A DNA stretch of 41,890 nt from a virus. Below, piece after piece: positions 22,097-35,245 of the stretch. Below the pieces are notes generated by a model. The model saw nothing but the letters and a program-made list of their open reading frames with translations, was not told the origin of the DNA and searched no databases. Made by a program: the position numbers and the translations under genes. The stretch is taken from positions 1 to 41,890 of the IMG/VR virus record IMGVR_UViG_3300034110_000364. One strand, 5' to 3'. The stretch's first letter is position 1. Each line of letters opens with the position of its first letter.

Positions 22097-23125
22097 ATGA
22101 AATTCACATTAGACGCGGGCGGCGCGCAAGCGGCTGGCCAGGGCATTGGCAACCTGTTCAAGGCCTACGCCCTTGGGCCGCAAATGCGCCAGCAGGCCGA
22201 GCAAGACACGGCCTCAAAGATGGCGCAGATTTACATGAACAACATGCACGGCAACAAATACGGTGCTGAGGCCGAGGGTTTGGGCATGACCAACCGGGCA
22301 CGCCAAGCACCGATTGACAGCAGCCTGCCCGCCAACTTGCAAACCGCTTACAAGCTGTTTCAGGCGACGGGTGACACGAACATGGAGCGCTTTGCCAATG
22401 CGGGCACGGCGCTGCAAACGCAGGGCATCCGCGACCAGGCGGTGGCCAACGTCAACAACCTGGACACCATGAACCGGTTGAACACCTTGGCCAAGCCGGG
22501 CGACACGTACATGCCATACGACAACGTGGGCACGTCGGGCTATTCGCTCAACAAGACCACAGGCGCACAAGTCGAAGCCAATCCGGTCATCGCCAAGCTG
22601 TTCCAGCAAGCCGAGGGAGCGCTGGCAACCCAGCGCAATGCGGCGGCCGGTGCATCTGGTGCCGCCGCAGGCCTAAGCAATGCGCGCCGTGACCGCGTGG
22701 TGAGCGGCCTGGACAAGCCCGTGACCATCGTGGACGACGAGACCGGCCAGGCCAGCGTGACGGCACTGCCCACCCGTGGCGATCCGCGCACCATCGGCCT
22801 GGCACCAGTCAAGGGCACAGGCGCTGACGCCACCAACGCCAAAACCCGCAACGCCATCATCGCGGCCGTCGAAAAGGAAATGCCGGGCGCTGATGAAGCG
22901 ATGCTCACGGCAGAGGTGGAAAAGCGCCTGGCACGTCGCGGCATTGTCCCAACTGGAAACAAAAATCCGGCACCGGCACAAGACAAGCCAAAAATTGCTC
23001 TACCCCAGGGCTACACGTCAGACCGCGCATTGAGCGAGGCCAAGGCCGCCATCGCGTCAGGCAAAGACAGAAACGCCGTGATTCAACGGCTGCGCGACAT
23101 GGGGGTTGAACCAAAAGGACTGTAA
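22097..23125 (+). CDS. Ejection-complex protein, unknown
   Basis: The product has 342 residues. ATG 22097 lies 10 bases after the previous stop. The sequence is Ala/Gln/Asn-rich and helical, with GGAQAAGQGIGNLFKAYALG near the start and an AAAGASGAAAGLSNARRDRV linker in the middle. ADEAMLTAEVEKRLARRG and DRNAVIQRLRDMGVEPKGL are near the end. The final motif resembles those found at the C-termini of phage virion proteins before large internal proteins. It ends in a TAATG junction with the giant gene, so the two are co-translated. Confidence 0.58.
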   Translation: MKFTLDAGGAQAAGQGIGNLFKAYALGPQMRQQAEQDTASKMAQIYMNNMHGNKYGAEAEGLGMTNRARQAPIDSSLPANLQTAYKLFQATGDTNMERFANAGTALQTQGIRDQAVANVNNLDTMNRLNTLAKPGDTYMPYDNVGTSGYSLNKTTGAQVEANPVIAKLFQQAEGALATQRNAAAGASGAAAGLSNARRDRVVSGLDKPVTIVDDETGQASVTALPTRGDPRTIGLAPVKGTGADATNAKTRNAIIAAVEKEMPGADEAMLTAEVEKRLARRGIVPTGNKNPAPAQDKPKIALPQGYTSDRALSEAKAAIASGKDRNAVIQRLRDMGVEPKGL

Positions 23126-26100
23126 TGGCTGGATTGTTTGATGATGTGCCGGATACGAAAAAGACACCGGCAGCCGGGATTTTCGATGACATCCCGGGCA
23201 ACCCGGCCCCCGCCGCAAGCTGGACAGACAACCTTCGAGACATCACATCCGCAGCCCTGAAGATCGGCCCAACGGCCGTCAAGGGCGTCGCTGACTTGGC
23301 CCGCCTGGTCACGGGCGACCGCATTGGCGTGGACACGTCCAACGCCATGAAGCGCGGCATGCAGTCCTTTGACGACATCATCGCATCCGACGCGATGCGT
23401 GCCCAGCAGGCCAACGTCAATCAGGCGCTGCAGGACAAGAACGTCAGCATCACGGACCTGCCCGGCATCGTGGCGCAGAACCCCCGCGCAGCCGGTGACG
23501 CTGCCATTTCCACCGTGGGCTCGATGTTCCTGCCCACAGGCTTGGCTGTAGGTGCCACCAAGTTGCTTCCGTCTGTTGCAGTCTTGGGCGGAAAGGTGGC
23601 AGAGGTAGCGCCCAAGTTCGCGCCTATCGCAGAAAAAGTAGCCGCACTAAGCCCTGGCGCAGTCGCCACGGGCACATCAATCGGTACCGGCGCAGCGCAG
23701 AACGCGGCCGAGACCTTTGTGGACACCGAAGGCCAGGACATGGCCGACCGCTACAAGGGCGCAGGAATCAGCGGCGCGGCTTCGCTGGTGCTGGGCAAGT
23801 TGTTGGGCGGTGGTGCAGAGGGTGTCGTGGCCCGTCGCCTGGCCGGTGAAACCGGTGTGCGCGGTGCGCTGGCCATGGGCAAGTCGGCCGCCCAGACTGG
23901 CGGTAAGGAATTCGTGCAGGAGACTGGCGAAGGATCATCCAACTACGTCGGCAAGCAAGTCGCCAAGAACGAGGCCATCGACCCCAACACCATGGGCAAG
24001 CAAGGCCTGTACGGCGGCATGATCGGCCTGGGTGTCGGTGGCGTGTCCGACGTGTCCACCAACTTGGCCAACGTGGGCCAGGGCAGCGCCGAGCGCCAGA
24101 TCGCAAACGCCATCGACCAAGCGGCTCAGGAATTTGCGGACCAGGCACCGCCGCGCACCGTGCAGCAGACAGTCGCCCGCATCTTCGATGACCTGCCATC
24201 CAGCCAGGAAACCCCAGAAGCCAAGCCACTGGCCTTGCCATTTGACCCGGCCGTGCAGAACCCGCAGCCCACCATGGTGGCCGACGCCACCGGCAACGTG
24301 CGCCCGATGTCTCCCGACGAGCAACTGGCCCAGCAAGAGCTGGCCGACCGCATGGCCAGCCTTGGCCTGACGCCCGACGTGCAGCGCGCCATCGAGCAAC
24401 GCCAGCAGTCGCCAGAGTCCGGCCCCGTGTCGTCACCCAGCGACCTGATCCAGCGCCTCATGGGCACCGGCTGGCAGCCCACTGCCATTTCCAGCCAGGG
24501 CATCAACCCAGCGCCCGAGCCTGGCCTGGTGAACGCCCTCGAGCAGGACCTGGAGCAGCAATTCCAGCAAGACCTGAAAGAGGAAATCCGCGCGCGCTTG
24601 GCATCACAGGCGAAAACGGAAACCCAGGCGCAACCCGCGCCAGTGCAGGCCCCGGCCATGACACCGGAATCCGCACCAGTTTTGCAGCCTGCCACTTCGG
24701 GGATGCCCGAGGCAGGGGCCGGGGGTACCCAGCCGCCGCAGGCTGCACCCAACGACCGCTACGGCATCGACAGCACGCCATTCAGCCAAGGCGGCAAGCC
24801 GTTCAAGACCAAGCTGGCCGCGCAGAAAGCCAAAAAGCTGCAGCCCATGATGCGCGTGGTGTCCGTGCCTGGCGGATTCGCCCTGGCCGACAAGACGCCC
24901 GCGCAGCTGGCCGCAGAAGCCAAAGCCGCCAAGCGCATCCGTGGCATGAGCACGGGCAACAACGCCCCTATGTCGGTGCATGAGTTCATCGCCGCGCAGG
25001 GTGGCCTGAGCCGTTCCGTGCAGTCCGACCTGGGCATCGAGGGCAACGTCAAGATCGGCAATCGCTGGCTGTATGCCGGACCCGGCAAGGGCATGACCAT
25101 CGAGCAAGCCACCGAGAAACTGGTGGAAGCGGGCTACATCAACGACGACAGCCACAACACCGCCTACGACATCATCCGCCGTAGCGTGAATGACCCCCAA
25201 TACACGCCAGAAGGCTGGGAGCAAGTCGCAGAAGCCGAGCGAGAAGCGCAGTTCGAGGATTACCTGGCCGCCCAGCAGGACGAGCCAACCGATCCCTTTG
25301 CGCCGCTGACCCCCGAGGAATTGGCTGAGACCGGTTATAACCAGTACAACGAAGAAACCCAGGCGGAAATCCGCGCCCTGGTGGAGCAAGCCGAGGCGCT
25401 TGGCATTGACGCCGACGCCATCAAAGAAGACCTGGCCCGCTCAATGACGCAGGCCACCCAACAGGACTATGAAAATGCAGCAAAAGCCGCCCTCCAGAAA
25501 GCCATCGAAGGAAGCGATGGAAGTCGCAGCCAAGATTCTGGCCAAGAAGGCACAGAAACTGGCGCAACAGAGCAAGCCCAAGCCGAAGGGCTGACCAGCT
25601 ACACCCCGCAGGAAATCGAGCAGCGCCTGGCCAAGCTGGAGCAGGCCGAGCAAGAGCGCCAGCAGCAGGACCGCGAAGCCGAGCAACGCGCCCAGGCCGA
25701 CGCCCAGCGCGACGACTTCACGCTGACCGGTAGCAACCGTGACGCAGACGTGGCCGCCGCGCGTGGCCAGCGCGACATTTTCAGCGCGCCACCCGAAGAA
25801 ACCCAGGACGAACCAGCCACCGGCAAGATCGAGGACTTGGGCGAGAAGATCGGCGGCGCACGCAAGGACACTGCCACCAGCACCGGCCGCACTGGCCGCA
25901 CCAAGACCAAAGACGAGCGGCCAGCATGGGCCCGTCGCTTTGACGTGTCGCAAATCGTGGCCGGTGACAACGAAGGCCGCTGGACCATCCACGACAACCG
26001 CAGCAAGGACTGGATGGGCCAGCCCAAACAAGTGGGCGGCCGCGGCAACACATTCGCCACCGAGCAAGAGGCACTGGATGCCATCCCGCTGGCCGCCGTG

Positions 26101-29100
26101 TCGATGAAGCACCGCGCGGTACCGACGGGCACCAAGGGTGCAGACGGCGAATACAGCTATGAAATCTGGCGCGACATCAACGACCGCAAGCGCGTGAAGG
26201 TGGTGGATCAGACATTCCCCAGCCGCGTGGCCGCGCTGGAGTACATGGCCAAGAACGCCCAGGCCATTCTGGAAACCAATACGACGTTTGGCGAAGCCGA
26301 CCTGCCAAGACCAGACAACACGGCCCGCACAGGCGTGGCACGCCGCACGGGCGACGTGGAAGGCAAGGACTTCATGGAGACCTTTGGTTTCCGTGGCGTG
26401 GAGTTTGGCAACTGGAACAACCAGACCGAGCGCCAAGAGGTGATGAATGCCGCCTACGACGGATTGATGGACCTGGCCGAAGTGATGCAAATCCCGGCCA
26501 AGGCCATCGGCCTCAATGGCGACCTGGCGCTGGCCTTCGGTGCACGTGGCCAAGGATTGTCCAGTGCCGTGGCGCACTACGAGCGCAGCCGTGCCGTCAT
26601 CAACCTGACCAAGATGAACGGCGCTGGCGCTTTGGCGCATGAGTGGCTTCACGCCCTGGATCACTACTTTGGACGCCAAGACGGCAAAGCCTCAAGCGAG
26701 TGGCGCGTGGGAGCCGACGGCACCAAGACGTTTGACATCCAAGGCGCTGAAAACGACATGGCAAGCGGTGGCTTCAAGCGCGTCAATTCTGGCGTGCGCC
26801 AGGAGTTGCGCGACGCCTACAAGAGCGTCATGGAAACGATGTTCAGTAAGGCCGAGAAGTACGTCGAGGACACAGCAAAGGCCGACCAGTTCGTGGCCAA
26901 GTCGCGCGAAGACGTGGCCCGACGCCTGGATGCCCTGCGCAAGGACCTGTCAGAACAGAAGGACGTGCGTTACTACAAGCGCAACAACAAGCCCGCCAGC
27001 GCCGAGCAATTGGCCGAGTTTGACACCGTGGCCAAGCAGATCATGGACGGCGAGGCGCTGGAAGTGAGCCTAATGAAGGTGGAGGGCAGCAGGACCGCCA
27101 CCGGCAGCCGCTGGAGTACCGAAGCACTGGAGCGACTGAGCGCCATTTACAAGGCAGTGCGCGGCCGCAGTGGCTTTGGTTCTGGCGATCAGACCGGTGT
27201 GATGGACAGCCTGCGCGGCGACATGACCCGCTACAGCCAGCGCCTGAAGATGCTGGCCGAAGCGCAAGCGGGCGACGAAAAGACCAAGCGCGTGCCAACC
27301 GAGTTCGCCATGAGCGCCAAAGAGCTGGACCAAGGGCGCGGGGAAGACTACTGGACGACACCGCACGAAATGGCCGCGCGTGCTTTCCAGGGTTACGTCG
27401 AAGACAAGATTGCAGCGCAAGGCGCACGCAGTCCGTTCCTGAATTACGCGCCTGAAAACGCCGGAATCTTGACACCCTGGGGAGCCAAGCGCCCGTACCC
27501 GTATGGGAAGGAGCGCAAAGCCATCAATGAAGCGTTTGACGCCTTCGTGTCGGTGCTGCAGACCCGCGAGACTGACAAGGGCGTGATGCTGTACGACCTG
27601 GCCCGCCGCCAGCAAGGCAACCCGTTTGAACGCCTGCCCGAGAAGGCCCAGGCCAACATGCGCACCCGGCTGGATGCTTTGGCTACCCGGCTTGGCGATG
27701 GCGCGATCACAGACGACCAGTATGCCAAGGGCGCGCAGGATGTTCTGGAGCAAGTCGCCCAAGTCACTCAGCGCCGCGTCAACCGTGGGCCTGACTGGGT
27801 ACAAGAGCGCCTGATTCGAGCCAAGCGCAAGGGCGAGCTGGAAGCCGACACGGTGGACTTTGCGCTGTGGGCATTGTCCAAGAACCCGGCCATGGCCAAC
27901 GACCTGGCGGTGCTGGTTTCTGACACCAAAGAGCCGGCAGCGGGCGACTACAACCCCGCCACCGAAACCATGCGGCTGTTTAAGAGCACGGCCAGCGAGA
28001 CCACGGCGGTGCATGAAATCCTGCACCACACCGAGCGGATGATGCCGCCCGAGGTGCAAGCGGGCATTTTGCGCGAGTACAACGAAGCATGGGGCAGCGC
28101 CTACAAAAAGGCCGACAACCAAGTGAAGGGCCTAATGCGCGACATGCTGGTGGCCGCAGCCGGGGACAAGAAATCCATGGACCGCGTGGTGAATGCGTTT
28201 GCCGACGGCACGCTGGACTACGACCTGCATTATTCGCTGTTCAACCCCAGCGAGTTCTGGGCGGTCAAGGCTTCGGACATTCTGGCCAAGCGCTACGAGG
28301 TCAAGGGCTCATGGGTGGGCCAGGCCAAGCAGTGGCTGCGCGAGCTGGTTCAATTCTTGAAGGCCAAGCTGGGCATGCAGTCGGACGCGCCGATTTTGAA
28401 GGCGCTGGAGGCTGTGCTGAAAGGCGACGGCACCAAGTTCAGCAAGGACATTTTGGCCGACGCTGAAACCGTCAACGACATGGCGCCAACCGACACCCTG
28501 CGCATGATCCCCAAGAACCCGAACGGCCAGCAAAGCGCAAACAATGGCTGGACCGTGCCCGAGCCCGGCACGATGGACAACGCCATCCGCGCGATTCAGA
28601 ACAACAAGATCGACATGAAGCGCGTGCGAGATTCCATTGCCGAGCGCTTTGGCAAGGTCAACGAAGACGCTGACGCCTACCTGAACGAGGAGCTTTACCA
28701 CGGCAAAGTGGCCGCCCGCGTCGAGTCCGTCTACAACGACAGCGTGGAGCCGATCCTGGCCAAGATCGCCGTGGCAGGCAAAAACGTCGGCGTGACCATG
28801 AACGACGTGAACCAGTACCTGCACGCCCGCCACGCGCCCGAGCGCAACGCTGCGATGAAGGCGATCAACCCGGACATGAAGAATAACGAAGCCCTGTCCG
28901 GCATGAGCAACCAAGAGGCGGCCAAGGTGATGGCCGACTTCACCGCTGCAGGCAAGGACAAGGCGCTGGCGCTGATCGCCAAGGATGTGGACCAGTTGCT
29001 GACCAACACCCGCACCGACTTGGTGGCCGACGGCCTGGAGGACGCTGGCGTGGTTCAAGCCTGGGAGTCGGCTTACAAGCATTACGTACCGCTGCAGCGT

Positions 29101-31176
29101 GACATTGGCTCAAGCGGCACGCCCAAGGGCATGGGCTTCAGCGTGCGCGGCCCTGAGTCCAAGCGCGCCATGGGCTCCAACAAGGAAGTGGTGAACATCC
29201 TGGCCAACATCGTGGCCCAAGCCGAGACCGCCGCGATCCGCGCCGAGAAGGCAACCGTGGGCCGCTCGCTGCTGGCCATGGCCCGCCAGTACCCGAACCC
29301 TGATTTCTGGACCGTGGACAAGGCCCCAACCAAGCCGCGCATCAACAAGGACACCGGCCTAGTGGAGCGCAACGCCGTGGACCCGTTGTATCAGACGGCC
29401 GACAACGTGATCATGGTGAAGGACTACGGCCAAGAGCATTTCATTGTCTTCAACCAGAAGAACGAGCGCGCCATGGCCGTGGCCAAGTCCATGAAGAACC
29501 TGGACATCGCGCCGATGAACAAGATTCTGGAAGTCGCCAGCAAGGGCACCCGATTCTTGGCTTCGCTGCTGACCCAGCGGAACCCGCTTTTCTGGCTGAC
29601 CAACTTTGCCCGCGACGTGCAGGGCGCAATGCTGAACCTGGAAGGCACCGAAGCCGAAGGCCTGCAGCGCCAGGTGATGGCCAACATGCCCAAAGCCTTC
29701 AAGGGTATGCACTCGCTGGTGCGCGGTGAAGGCACTGGCCAATGGGCACGCTACGCCAGGGAAATGCAGGAGGCTGGCGGCACCACCGGCTACATGCAGG
29801 CCTTCGAGAATTCGGACGCCCGCATGAAGGACCTGAAGGCGGAAGTGGCCAAGATGCAGCAAGGCAAGGCCGACCCGCGCCGCCTGGCCCGCATGACGCT
29901 GGAATTTGTGGACGACTACAACGACATCATCGAAAACGCGGTGCGCTTGTCGGTGTTCCAAGCCGCGCGAGAAGGTGGTGCGTCAACCACCAAGTCGGCC
30001 AGCATCGCCAAAAACATCACGGTCAACTTCAACCGCAAGGGCAATCTGATACCGCCGATCAATGCGCTTTACATGTTCTTCAACGCCAGCGTGCAGGGCA
30101 CGGCGCGACTGCTGCAAGCCACTGCCACCAGCAAGACCGCCCAGGCGGCCGTCGGCGGCATCGCCGTCATGGGCTTCATGCTGGACATGCTCAACCGCAT
30201 GGCGGCCGGTGATGACGACGAGACCAAGCGCAACCGGTACGACCTGATCCCCGAGTTCGAGAAATCGCGCAACTGGATTTTCATGAATCCAATGCGCCCG
30301 GGTGAATACGTCAAGGTGCCGCTGCCACTGGGCCCCCACGTTTTCCACAACGCTGGCCGCCTGCTGTCGGACGCGATCAACCGCAAGGACGCGCGCAACG
30401 CTTCGGAGTACGGCTGGAGCATCGCGGGCATTTTCCTGGACGCCTTCAGCCCACTGGGAGCCGCGTCTTCTACTGGCCAACTTATTGCGCCCAGTGTGTT
30501 GGACCCGGTGGTGCAGCTCACTGAAAACAAGTCATTCACGGGCGCGCCGGTTTACAAGTCGGCCGACCGCTTCGGCAAGACCGACCCCAAACCGGCTTAC
30601 ACCCGCTACTTTGAAAGCACGCCTGACGTGTGGAAAGGCGCATCGCGCATGCTCAACGACATGAGCGGTGGCGACAAGGTGAAGCCGGGCATGGTCAACA
30701 TCGAGCCCGACATCATGAAGCACGTCTTTTACACGCTGACCGGTGGCCCTGGCCGCACGCTGGACCAGGCCATTGACGCGACCCAGGCCGGTGCCCGTGG
30801 CAAAGAGCTGACCGTGAACCGCGTGCCATTGGCCAGCCGCTTCTACGGTGCCAACGACGACCAGCAACGCGAGCGCGCCTACTACGACGACCGCAAGCGC
30901 GCGGGCGATGCCAAAACCCAGTTCGACTACTACATCAAGCAGGGCCGCATGGACCTGGCCAAGGAAGTGGCGAAAGAGCTGGGCGACGGCGACGAGGCCA
31001 AAGGCCGCAAGCAAATGCTGGAGTTCTCGCGCGCCGAGAAGTCAGTGCGCAAAATCAACGGCGAAATCCGCCGCCAGATGGAGCGCGACGACGACGGCGA
31101 TGCCAAGGCTGAACAGCTCAAGGCCCTGCGCCAGCGCCGCGTGCGTGTGATGTCGGACGCCTTGGACGAAGAATAA
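23125..31176 (+). CDS. Giant polyvalent ejection protein with LPD1-type and second HExxH metallopeptidase motifs and LPD38-like region
   Basis: The product has 2,683 residues, the largest gene here. The N-terminus repeats FDDVPDTKK/FDDIPGN-type motifs (again IFDDLPSSQET near residue 352) and has small hydrophobic segments. Residues about 1090-1190 match the large-polyvalent-protein domain 1: GVEFGNWNNQTERQEVM, LALAFGARGQG, VINLTKMNGAGALAHEWLHALDHYF, with HEWLH at 1172-1176. A second zincin motif HEILH is at 1630-1634, in a different context (ETTAVHEILHHTERMM). Residues about 2135-2420 (NPLFWLTNFARDVQGAML, PINALYMFFNASVQGTARLL) are LPD38-like. The rest is Gln/Ala-rich coil. It is probably packed in the capsid and injected, then processes cell wall, itself or host proteins. 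Confidence 0.85.
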   Translation: MAGLFDDVPDTKKTPAAGIFDDIPGNPAPAASWTDNLRDITSAALKIGPTAVKGVADLARLVTGDRIGVDTSNAMKRGMQSFDDIIASDAMRAQQANVNQALQDKNVSITDLPGIVAQNPRAAGDAAISTVGSMFLPTGLAVGATKLLPSVAVLGGKVAEVAPKFAPIAEKVAALSPGAVATGTSIGTGAAQNAAETFVDTEGQDMADRYKGAGISGAASLVLGKLLGGGAEGVVARRLAGETGVRGALAMGKSAAQTGGKEFVQETGEGSSNYVGKQVAKNEAIDPNTMGKQGLYGGMIGLGVGGVSDVSTNLANVGQGSAERQIANAIDQAAQEFADQAPPRTVQQTVARIFDDLPSSQETPEAKPLALPFDPAVQNPQPTMVADATGNVRPMSPDEQLAQQELADRMASLGLTPDVQRAIEQRQQSPESGPVSSPSDLIQRLMGTGWQPTAISSQGINPAPEPGLVNALEQDLEQQFQQDLKEEIRARLASQAKTETQAQPAPVQAPAMTPESAPVLQPATSGMPEAGAGGTQPPQAAPNDRYGIDSTPFSQGGKPFKTKLAAQKAKKLQPMMRVVSVPGGFALADKTPAQLAAEAKAAKRIRGMSTGNNAPMSVHEFIAAQGGLSRSVQSDLGIEGNVKIGNRWLYAGPGKGMTIEQATEKLVEAGYINDDSHNTAYDIIRRSVNDPQYTPEGWEQVAEAEREAQFEDYLAAQQDEPTDPFAPLTPEELAETGYNQYNEETQAEIRALVEQAEALGIDADAIKEDLARSMTQATQQDYENAAKAALQKAIEGSDGSRSQDSGQEGTETGATEQAQAEGLTSYTPQEIEQRLAKLEQAEQERQQQDREAEQRAQADAQRDDFTLTGSNRDADVAAARGQRDIFSAPPEETQDEPATGKIEDLGEKIGGARKDTATSTGRTGRTKTKDERPAWARRFDVSQIVAGDNEGRWTIHDNRSKDWMGQPKQVGGRGNTFATEQEALDAIPLAAVSMKHRAVPTGTKGADGEYSYEIWRDINDRKRVKVVDQTFPSRVAALEYMAKNAQAILETNTTFGEADLPRPDNTARTGVARRTGDVEGKDFMETFGFRGVEFGNWNNQTERQEVMNAAYDGLMDLAEVMQIPAKAIGLNGDLALAFGARGQGLSSAVAHYERSRAVINLTKMNGAGALAHEWLHALDHYFGRQDGKASSEWRVGADGTKTFDIQGAENDMASGGFKRVNSGVRQELRDAYKSVMETMFSKAEKYVEDTAKADQFVAKSREDVARRLDALRKDLSEQKDVRYYKRNNKPASAEQLAEFDTVAKQIMDGEALEVSLMKVEGSRTATGSRWSTEALERLSAIYKAVRGRSGFGSGDQTGVMDSLRGDMTRYSQRLKMLAEAQAGDEKTKRVPTEFAMSAKELDQGRGEDYWTTPHEMAARAFQGYVEDKIAAQGARSPFLNYAPENAGILTPWGAKRPYPYGKERKAINEAFDAFVSVLQTRETDKGVMLYDLARRQQGNPFERLPEKAQANMRTRLDALATRLGDGAITDDQYAKGAQDVLEQVAQVTQRRVNRGPDWVQERLIRAKRKGELEADTVDFALWALSKNPAMANDLAVLVSDTKEPAAGDYNPATETMRLFKSTASETTAVHEILHHTERMMPPEVQAGILREYNEAWGSAYKKADNQVKGLMRDMLVAAAGDKKSMDRVVNAFADGTLDYDLHYSLFNPSEFWAVKASDILAKRYEVKGSWVGQAKQWLRELVQFLKAKLGMQSDAPILKALEAVLKGDGTKFSKDILADAETVNDMAPTDTLRMIPKNPNGQQSANNGWTVPEPGTMDNAIRAIQNNKIDMKRVRDSIAERFGKVNEDADAYLNEELYHGKVAARVESVYNDSVEPILAKIAVAGKNVGVTMNDVNQYLHARHAPERNAAMKAINPDMKNNEALSGMSNQEAAKVMADFTAAGKDKALALIAKDVDQLLTNTRTDLVADGLEDAGVVQAWESAYKHYVPLQRDIGSSGTPKGMGFSVRGPESKRAMGSNKEVVNILANIVAQAETAAIRAEKATVGRSLLAMARQYPNPDFWTVDKAPTKPRINKDTGLVERNAVDPLYQTADNVIMVKDYGQEHFIVFNQKNERAMAVAKSMKNLDIAPMNKILEVASKGTRFLASLLTQRNPLFWLTNFARDVQGAMLNLEGTEAEGLQRQVMANMPKAFKGMHSLVRGEGTGQWARYAREMQEAGGTTGYMQAFENSDARMKDLKAEVAKMQQGKADPRRLARMTLEFVDDYNDIIENAVRLSVFQAAREGGASTTKSASIAKNITVNFNRKGNLIPPINALYMFFNASVQGTARLLQATATSKTAQAAVGGIAVMGFMLDMLNRMAAGDDDETKRNRYDLIPEFEKSRNWIFMNPMRPGEYVKVPLPLGPHVFHNAGRLLSDAINRKDARNASEYGWSIAGIFLDAFSPLGAASSTGQLIAPSVLDPVVQLTENKSFTGAPVYKSADRFGKTDPKPAYTRYFESTPDVWKGASRMLNDMSGGDKVKPGMVNIEPDIMKHVFYTLTGGPGRTLDQAIDATQAGARGKELTVNRVPLASRFYGANDDQQRERAYYDDRKRAGDAKTQFDYYIKQGRMDLAKEVAKELGDGDEAKGRKQMLEFSRAEKSVRKINGEIRRQMERDDDGDAKAEQLKALRQRRVRVMSDALDEE

Positions 31177-32376: not shown

Positions 32377-33435
32377 TCAACCCTGCAGCGCATCCCAGCG
32401 ACGGTGCACATCCTCTGGCCGGATGTGCGTGTAGCGCCTGAGCTGTGCCCAGTTCGTATGCCCTGACACCTGGGCCACTTCCTCAATCTTCAAGCCACCC
32501 CAAAAAAGTTGCGTGATGCCGGTGTGGCGCAGGTCATGGAATCGCAGGTCCGCGATCTTGGGCATGCCGGTTTCTGCGATCCGGTCCCGTGCGCGCTCAA
32601 AAGCCGCGGTCATTGAGTCGGTGTCATACGGAAAAATTCGCTCGTCCAGCTTCGGTATCTGGTCAAGCAGGGTGAAGGCTTGGCCAAGCAGAGGCACGGT
32701 CTGGTTGTTGCCAATTTTCTGGCGCGGGTGCTTCACGTCGCGGATCAGGATTGTGCGGCGCTTGTAATCCACGTCAGCCCAGCGGATGCGCGTGAGTTCG
32801 CCAGCACGGCGGGGCAGGGCCAGGGCCATTTTGTAAACCAGCGTCATGTCGATGCTGGTCTGGTGGTGGTGGTTGCGGCGCTCGAACTCTGCCAGCAAGG
32901 CGGCTTCTTCTTCGTCGTCCACCAGGCGGATCACTTCGCGCGACTTGCCGATGGCCCCGGCTTCCTTCAGCTTCTTGATGGCCAAGTCCACTTGCGACGG
33001 GTCTACCTGGATGCCGTGGGCATACGGTGCCGCGTGCACGGCGGCCGACAAGGGCGACAAGTTGGACAGGATCGTGGCCGGGCCAGCGCCTTCGGCTTTT
33101 CGCCTGACCACAAAGTCGGTGATGTCCTTGGCCGTCAGCTCGTCCAGCTTGATCTTGTGGAAAGCCTGGGCGGTGGTCTCATGGTTGAACACGGTGGACC
33201 GGCCCAGCGGCCTGAGCTTCTGCTGGTAAGCCAAGTGCTCCAGGATCAGCTCGCCCACGGTCATGGACCTGGTAGGCGCGCCGTCCTTCTTTACCTTGGC
33301 TTCGAGCCGTTCGGCCCACGACCTGGCCATGGCCTCGGTAGGGAAGGTCTTGGACTCGCTGAATACAATGACGCCTGCTTTCTTGATGCGGACCTGGGCA
33401 AAGAAGACTTCGCCGCGCGGCTGGATGGATGCCAT
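32377..33435 (-). CDS. int: Tyrosine-type integrase
   Basis: The product has 352 residues. A small N-terminal arm-binding region is followed by the core-binding SAM-like domain (about residues 55-150, MTVGELILEHLAYQQKL). The catalytic domain shows Arg210 (LPRRAGELTRI), Lys235 (VKHPRQK), His300-DLR303 (FHDLRHTG), His326 (SGHTNWAQ) and nucleophile Tyr335 (RRYTHI). It makes the phage temperate by joining attP to a host site. It is the last gene of the leftward operon. AAAGGAA precedes the ATG. The attachment core cannot be fixed without the host sequence. Confidence 0.93.
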   Translation of the reverse strand: MASIQPRGEVFFAQVRIKKAGVIVFSESKTFPTEAMARSWAERLEAKVKKDGAPTRSMTVGELILEHLAYQQKLRPLGRSTVFNHETTAQAFHKIKLDELTAKDITDFVVRRKAEGAGPATILSNLSPLSAAVHAAPYAHGIQVDPSQVDLAIKKLKEAGAIGKSREVIRLVDDEEEAALLAEFERRNHHHQTSIDMTLVYKMALALPRRAGELTRIRWADVDYKRRTILIRDVKHPRQKIGNNQTVPLLGQAFTLLDQIPKLDERIFPYDTDSMTAAFERARDRIAETGMPKIADLRFHDLRHTGITQLFWGGLKIEEVAQVSGHTNWAQLRRYTHIRPEDVHRRWDALQG

Positions 33436-34131: not shown

Positions 34132-34382
34132 ACCTGGCCCCTTTCCCAAAGCGCCTTTGCTTCGGCCTCGGTCTTGTCGATCCATGCGCCCAGCGCTTCA
34201 GCGCTGACCATCATTGGTGCCTTGCGGCTGGTGGTCAACCTGAAGGCCGGTACCGGCAGCTCGTTGCGCGCGGCTTTCTTCAGCGCTTCCTCATAGGACA
34301 GGCTGAAATATCGCTCGCAAACCTCGGCCAGGGGAATGGCTGGGGCTTTGTAAATGGACATGAGTGCAAGCGACGTGATCAT
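34128..34382 (-). CDS. PrtN-like (pyocin activator family) DNA-binding protein
   Basis: The product has 84 residues. The order MSIYKAPAIPLAEVCERYFSL, EEALKKAARNELPVPAFRL, SRKAPMMVSAEALGAWIDK matches the pyocin activator PrtN family. In these, a short winged-helix/excisionase-like fold (a YF-S-EEALKKA helix then a basic turn) binds DNA; PrtN of Pseudomonas activates pyocin genes through P-box repeats. It overlaps both neighbours by four bases. Placed two genes before int, it may be the excisionase or an activator acting on the TGATGCAC repeats; that link is inference. Confidence 0.72.
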   Translation of the reverse strand: MITSLALMSIYKAPAIPLAEVCERYFSLSYEEALKKAARNELPVPAFRLTTSRKAPMMVSAEALGAWIDKTEAEAKALWERGQV

Positions 34383-34636
34383 GCTTTTGCCTTGCTGTAA
34401 ACGTGAAAGCGCTTCGGGTTGATTTCGTGGGCCTGCTTCTTATCGCTCAGGCCTGGGATCGTGGACATGTCAATGCCAGCGGCGCGCTTGCGGTTGACCG
34501 TGGTGCTGGATGCTTTGCCGTGGTCAGCCGCTCGCTGGATTGCTTGGGCAATGGTCGAATGCCCGGCCCAGTTGAATGCGTTGCCTTGGCTTTTTGGTGT
34601 GCCATCTGGCCAGGTGTATGTCATGGTGTTGCTCAT
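34379..34636 (-). CDS. Small hypothetical phage protein
   Basis: The product has 85 residues from the ATG at 34636 (MSNTMTYTWPDGTPKSQG), with an alternative start 51 bases upstream at 34687. The shorter form is preferred because the extra codons include rare ones and have no better ribosome site. A perfect GTAGG/CCTAC stem lies just before the ATG. The sequence AFNWAGHSTIAQAIQRAADHGKASSTTVNRKRAAGIDMSTIPG has a possible DNA-binding helix. The end overlaps the PrtN-like start by ATGA. Function unknown. Confidence 0.55.
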   Translation of the reverse strand: MSNTMTYTWPDGTPKSQGNAFNWAGHSTIAQAIQRAADHGKASSTTVNRKRAAGIDMSTIPGLSDKKQAHEINPKRFHVYSKAKA

Positions 34637-34735
34637 GTAGGTGGGCCTACTCGCTGCGTCTGCGTCAGAGCTTTTGGGGCACCGCATGGGTTCTCTGTAA
34701 GGCGATCCCGCAGCATCCGCTTTCGGCCCTGAAAC

Positions 34736-35224
34736 TTACTGTGCGATGTGCCAGTCGTTGGCCAGGCAGTCGTTGACGCTTGGCACCCAGGTGCTCACGG
34801 TGTCATTGACGTTCTTGATTGCCATGTAGGCGTTGTATGGCACCAGCGCGCCTTCACCAAAGTGCGCCTTGGCTGCGCCGGTTTGCGCCGGGTAGGAATT
34901 GGCCGGGACGTGATACACAAACAGGCCTTTGCCATTCCAGCCAGCACGCGCGACACGCTCGCCGCGCTTCATCGCTTCAAGCGCCAGGCCGAAAGTCATG
35001 CCGCTGGTTGGTCCATAGGCGCGCTCAAACACGTCCTTGGGAGACCAGGACACATAGCCCTCGTACAGGTCGGTGTTGCCTTTGCCGCCGTCCAGGTACT
35101 CCACCAGATAGCCGTCGTCGGCCGGGTTCTCGTCGGCCGGCACAGTCCAGCCTCGAAAAGCGTTGTAGTCGCCGCGCGTCATGGGCTTGGCATTGATCAG
35201 TTTTACGCCGATGTATTGCTGCAT
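34736..35224 (-). CDS. DUF2829 / Tad2-family protein (predicted anti-Thoeris)
   Basis: The product has 162 residues in two parts. Residues 1-72 (YIGVKLINAKPMTRGDYN, PADDGYLVEYLDGG, GYVSWSPKDVFERAY) are a widespread phage module of unknown role. Residues 76-160 (MTFGLALEAMKRGERVARAG, WNGKGLFVYHV, STWVPSVNDCLANDW) have the conserved signature of DUF2829, the family of Thoeris anti-defence 2 (Tad2). Tad2 proteins are known to sequester the ADP-ribose-derived signals of Thoeris and related systems. The fold and role are predicted by family; the fused N-terminal module suggests added activity. It is in the early leftward operon, where such a protein should be made. Confidence 0.8.
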   Translation of the reverse strand: MQQYIGVKLINAKPMTRGDYNAFRGWTVPADENPADDGYLVEYLDGGKGNTDLYEGYVSWSPKDVFERAYGPTSGMTFGLALEAMKRGERVARAGWNGKGLFVYHVPANSYPAQTGAAKAHFGEGALVPYNAYMAIKNVNDTVSTWVPSVNDCLANDWHIAQ

Positions 35225-35245
35225 GGTGCTTCTTTCTTGCTTTGA

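Follow-up and report, generated by a model that had tools for sequence, protein, structure and literature searches.

The window, i.e. the whole stretch of 41,890 nucleotides of viral DNA analysed here, contains on its minus strand an open reading frame at positions 34,736–35,224, which was confirmed as genuine and with exact coordinates. It starts with an ATG at 35,224, ends with a stop codon at 34,736, and codes for a protein of 162 residues that belongs to the PHROG 872 family. Reading of the sequence placed a probable ribosome-binding sequence, AAGAAAGAAG (35,229–35,238, minus strand), 5' of the ATG, and located the start of the gene 21 bp past the stop of the preceding DUF2303 gene. The minus-strand order up to this point is RecT, a PD-(D/E)XK nuclease, a gene without family match, more small ORFs, SSB, phrog_204, and DUF2303. 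The two-module Tad2 gene is followed by an ORF of 102 residues (34,379–34,687), a PrtN-like gene (PF11112; 34,128–34,382), and an ORF that was recognized from its sequence as integrase-like (32,377–33,435). Upstream of two small ORFs and of this integrase, a single reading frame of 2683 residues occupies positions 23,125–31,176 and far exceeds the other genes in length.

The original prediction had placed the Tad2 gene between the DUF2303 and PrtN-like genes. This is correct for the DUF2303 side; on the PrtN side the 102-residue ORF intervenes, for which no relative was found in Pfam, PHROG or PADLOC. The PrtN-like gene is an excisionase according to PHROG (phrog_1300) and lies beside the integrase-like ORF; the name pyocin activator is probably misleading here. 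Furthermore, no additional defence or anti-defence family was recognized among the scanned neighbours of the Tad2 gene, and neither an Acb4-family (PF13876) nor a crAss001_48 domain gave a match anywhere in the window. Because an Acb4-family gene is absent and the PrtN-like gene resembles an excisionase, the anti-defence cassette suggested for this stretch is not supported; the corresponding partners were seen in relatives only.

The protein consists of two parts. Pfam assigned residues 76–160 (34,745–34,999, minus strand) to the Tad2-like family PF11195, formerly DUF2829, with E = 2e-23 and 83.1 bits compared to a cut-off of 25; the domain comprises about residues 74–161. PADLOC and NCBIfam gave no match to the 162-residue protein. 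PHROG 872 spans its entire length (E = 6e-63), and the two-part layout is therefore an established phage family, listed by PHROG without a function. Among 50,697 phage records, 360 matched the protein, and coverage reached 80% or more in 94 of these; examples are Acidovorax phage AP1 (70%), the Escherichia phages Louie and Kapi1, and gp49 of coliphage N4. The same layout was found in bacterial genome contigs of Burkholderia, Janthinobacterium, Enterobacter, Campylobacter, Clostridia, Rikenella and Chitinophaga, which presumably are mostly prophages. The fusion of the module to Tad2 is thus not peculiar to the phage of the window.

Residues 1–72 (35,009–35,224, minus strand) make up the N-terminal module, a separate unit with a beta-alpha-beta-beta-alpha arrangement that is predicted to fold on its own; the model of the module alone had a pLDDT of 91.1. 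Nearly invariant are G6, K8 and the motifs GYLVEYxDGG, SWSPK and FExAY. The mean column identity of the module is 74% (33 relatives), compared to 53% for the whole protein (54 relatives). The module had no Pfam match and no relative in the PDB, by sequence or by fold, which agrees with the 72-residue module of unknown role that had been described as fused to Tad2. We found no description of it in the literature; the coverage of papers on ModTad2 and His-ADPR and on sponge diversity was incomplete, and an earlier mention is possible. In two phage records, proteins with this module are labelled as Dec. A kinship with the capsid decoration protein Dec of phage L/ST64T was rejected: hhalign gave a probability of 0.3%, and Dec did not occur among the fold matches.

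An AlphaFold2 monomer model of the complete protein, which was built from 54 window and locus sequences, had a mean pLDDT of 93.8. All 24 fold matches in the PDB with E ≤ 0.001 were Tad2/AcrIIA7 chains, and the top match was 9eib, i.e. ModTad2 with His-ADPR (TM 0.80 of target, 50% identity). The sequence search in the PDB yielded Tad2/AcrIIA7 proteins only, with 94.9 bits for ModTad2 versus about 46–59 bits for the rest. Both results bear out the DUF2829/Tad2 signature that had been assigned to the C-terminal half, the first by way of the proposed comparison of a structure prediction with Tad2. According to a review, the gcADPR pocket of Tad2 is located between the loops beta1-beta2, beta3-beta4 and beta4-alpha3 and the helix alpha3 (PMC12043709). 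In the window protein, the beta1-beta2 loop corresponds to RAGWNGKG (residues 93–100; 34,925–34,948, minus strand); in SPO1 Tad2 this is one of the loops said to line the ligand pocket (PMC12043709). In 54 relatives, R93, G95, W96 and G98 are invariant, and N97, K99 and G100 are conserved to at least 94%. The beta4-alpha3 loop and the start of alpha3, WVPSVND (residues 146–152; 34,769–34,789, minus strand), likewise belong to the pocket-lining stretches; W146 and S149 are invariant across the 54 relatives. The beta1-beta2 and beta4-alpha3 loops and alpha3 hold some of the most conserved residues of the domain, with the pocket being assigned by segment.

ModTad2 from a Myroides odoratus prophage (PDB 9eib, 8v3e) shares with the window protein the Tad2 domain and its fold; it comprises 88 residues and lacks the N-terminal module. 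The module is likewise missing in SPO1 Tad2 (Gp34.65; 8sme, 8smf) and HgmTad2/AcrIIA7 (8kbi), which have the family, the fold and the GWNGK loop in common with the window protein at about 35–38% identity. The ligand of ModTad2 is the His-ADPR of type II Thoeris, whereas that of SPO1 Tad2 is the gcADPR of type I (PMC13299392).

The most common setting of the module is N-terminal to Tad2. It also exists as a stand-alone protein of 69–78 residues (phiEaP8 gp22, HHBS14_1, JELG-KS1), is fused to PF13876 in either order, for example C-terminal to an Acb4-family protein in locus L166, and is joined to crAss001_48 (PF21825) in some phages. In L027, a single reading frame contains the module, Tad2, PF13876 and crAss001_48. 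Fusions of Tad2 and crAss001_48 without the full N-terminal module occur in L079, L080, L197, L214, L223 and L232, and crAss001_48 might likewise have a counter-defence role. The family PF13876 corresponds to Acb4: the Acb4 protein of SPO1 sequesters CBASS signals, and 3'3'-cGAMP was bound by each of the eight homologues examined (PMC11722364). The Acb4 and Tad2 sponge families have no known structural homology (PMC11722364), and the module therefore joins two sponge families of this kind. The Acb4 family (9e4w) itself binds CBASS cyclic dinucleotides with a fold unrelated to Tad2, and is a recurrent neighbour of module-Tad2 genes. A separate Acb4-family gene was present in 18 of 91 distinct, well-flanked loci (about a fifth). 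In the fetched flanks of module-Tad2 genes, 42 distinct loci had a separate PF13876-like gene; in 40 of these it was located at most 450 bases away on the same strand, 21 times upstream and 19 times downstream. Taking one gene in five as adjacent, a rough chance value of 6e-26 results, which is indicative only because the loci are related to each other.

For 170 distinct module-Tad2 proteins, the mean pairwise identity was 61% in the module versus 45% in the Tad2 half. The module was at least 85% identical in 360 pairs, and in 169 of these the identity in Tad2 was below 50%. Part of this sample was retrieved with the sequence of the module itself, which favours module conservation, and pairwise DNA comparisons therefore carry more weight. 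For example, L007 and L109 are 96% identical over 600 bases upstream and 95% identical in the module, compared to 60% in Tad2. In this pair, and likewise in L005/L104 and L084/L163, the sequences agree closely across the module and the first helix of Tad2; identity then drops to 23–57% from about base 290 to base 450 and is back at 73–100% at the end of the gene. The module and the DNA beside the exchange are mostly 90–100% alike in these related phages. Most of the Tad2 pocket falls within the replaced stretch. The counterpart of this stretch in the window protein comprises about residues 97–150 (34,775–34,935, minus strand); the exchange itself was seen in the three pairs of relatives, which do not include the window phage. 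Since one module serves both types of pocket, it is unlikely to set the ligand choice. As judged from these comparisons, the proposal that the module alters the choice of ligand is probably not correct: near-identical modules carry very different pocket segments.

Taken together, we consider it probable that the gene encodes a counter-defence protein of the Tad2 family, a sponge with His-ADPR as the likeliest ligand, combined with a separate module whose own function is probably also directed against host defence. The C-terminal domain would most likely form a Tad2-type tetramer with pockets between the protomers. These pockets would sequester an NAD-derived signal, most plausibly His-ADPR, that a Thoeris system generates through its TIR protein, and the ThsA effector would stay inactive. 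The N-terminal module would be a separately folding domain that acts as an interchangeable partner of Tad2, Acb4 (PF13876) or crAss001_48, or on its own. It most likely provides a second counter-defence activity, and may bind another signal or engage a host defence protein. The argument for an activity of its own is one of association, because the module has no characterized relative; its partners point to counter-defence. The original prediction was thus right in describing a two-module member of the Tad2 family whose first module is of unknown kind, whereas the type of signal, the cassette and the role in ligand choice had to be corrected.

The correction of the signal concerns the claim that the protein traps cyclic ADP-ribose-type signals. 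The assignment to the Tad2 family holds; the ligand of the closest characterized relative, ModTad2, is His-ADPR rather than a cyclic ADP-ribose. Pairwise scores of the window Tad2 clearly favour ModTad2, with 96 bits compared to 62 and 53 bits. Moreover, V150 and the WxPSV motif are common to the window protein and ModTad2, whereas SPO1 Tad2 and HgmTad2/AcrIIA7 contain a Q instead of the V (WxxSQ). The alternative that cyclic dinucleotides or isomers of cyclic ADP-ribose are the ligands in place of His-ADPR, and that the domain is directed against CBASS or type I Thoeris, has to be taken seriously, even if we rather doubt it. Some Tad2 proteins accept cyclic dinucleotides as well as gcADPR, and an insertion is said to hold the cyclic dinucleotides (PMC12043709); according to alignments, this insertion is shorter in the window protein than in HgmTad2/AcrIIA7. 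A tree of Tad2 domains left the window protein untied to ModTad2: the branch point of ModTad2 was unsettled, and its nearest rows by path were outside the group of the window. Because this tree, with its 90 columns, did not settle the position of ModTad2, the ligand call is a moderate prediction only. An anti-Thoeris sponge is the best prediction for the window Tad2, and the ligand, demonstrated as His-ADPR for ModTad2, is probably the same here, as scores and motif suggest. A search for ThsA_Macro in 44 prophage-bearing genomes gave no match and was uninformative, because the controls gave nothing either. It is very improbable that the protein is an anti-CRISPR (AcrIIA7). Two solved relatives were deposited as AcrIIA7 or as inhibitor of type II CRISPR-Cas, and relatives in several phage records are named anti-CRISPR protein. 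However, the deposited AcrIIA7 structure 8kbk contains 1',2'-cADPR and cGG, and the AcrIIA7 label and the sponge activity therefore belong to one protein family; in addition, ModTad2 as the nearest solved relative is no anti-CRISPR.

A phage housekeeping function, such as that of an early-gene regulator with a likeness to Tad2 that is unrelated to counter-defence, would fit the gene's place in an early operon alongside RecT, SSB and DUF2303 and a weak PHROG match to the transcriptional regulator family phrog_643 (E = 2e-4). We regard it as improbable, since the exchange of the pocket segment and the association with Acb4 genes resemble an arms-race gene. Less remote, albeit still unlikely, is a module that serves purely as a scaffold, has no target of its own, and helps the sponge to assemble, to be stable or to be expressed. 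Its high conservation and its linkage to sponge domains of differing folds agree with such a role. On the other hand, the stand-alone modules suggest that it is not just a scaffold, and so do its C-terminal position in L166 and the fusions of Tad2 and crAss001_48 that manage without it (L079, L080).

Under the preferred reading, a sponge combined with an active module, one uncharacterized domain ties together two unrelated sponge families, anti-Thoeris and anti-CBASS, and both the module and crAss001_48 are predicted to act in counter-defence. What is new here is the module, whose sharing between sponge families suggests an undescribed building block of counter-defence. The exchange of the pocket segment between otherwise similar phages would be the footprint of an arms race over signal chemistry. 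A more far-reaching version, to which we give somewhat less than an even chance, sees in the module a novel domain with a counter-defence role of its own, which would probably act as an additional sponge or as a decoy for a sensor of the host. Phages would then build multi-valent anti-defence proteins from at least four parts (module, Tad2, Acb4 and crAss001_48), and would swap the ligand-binding core of Tad2 in step with changing host signals while the module is retained.

A test ground in a classical laboratory phage is offered by gp48 and gp49 of Escherichia phage N4. N4 gp49 has the same two-module layout as the window protein (44% identity over 98%), and the adjoining gp48 matches the Acb4 structure 9e4w with E = 9e-4. 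In contrast to N4, which is a lytic podophage, the window contains no Acb4-family gene. The papers searched gave no function for gp48 or gp49. Both the module-Tad2 gene of N4 and the stand-alone module gene of phiEaP8 lie next to the gene for the virion RNA polymerase.

A weak fold match had pointed to a RyR/Tad2 fusion in Yersinia phage TG1, which was dismissed as no Tad2 domain was found in TG1. At L074:4498-5495, two Tad2-domain genes of differing sequence adjoin each other in a single phage contig, and only one of them includes the module. At L167:2711-3043 and L105:2717-3022, the module is joined to two more C-terminal parts without Pfam relatives. In Vibrio phage 1.183.O (L174:2723-2917), it is combined with a small, probably helical family (phrog_1761/phrog_5120). 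The Acb2/Tad1 hairpin (PF24729) was rejected as an identity for this tail, as it gave no match while the T4 control matched, and hhalign gave 0.1%. In many phages, the phrog_1761/phrog_5120 family is also encoded by genes of its own, with 368 matching records.
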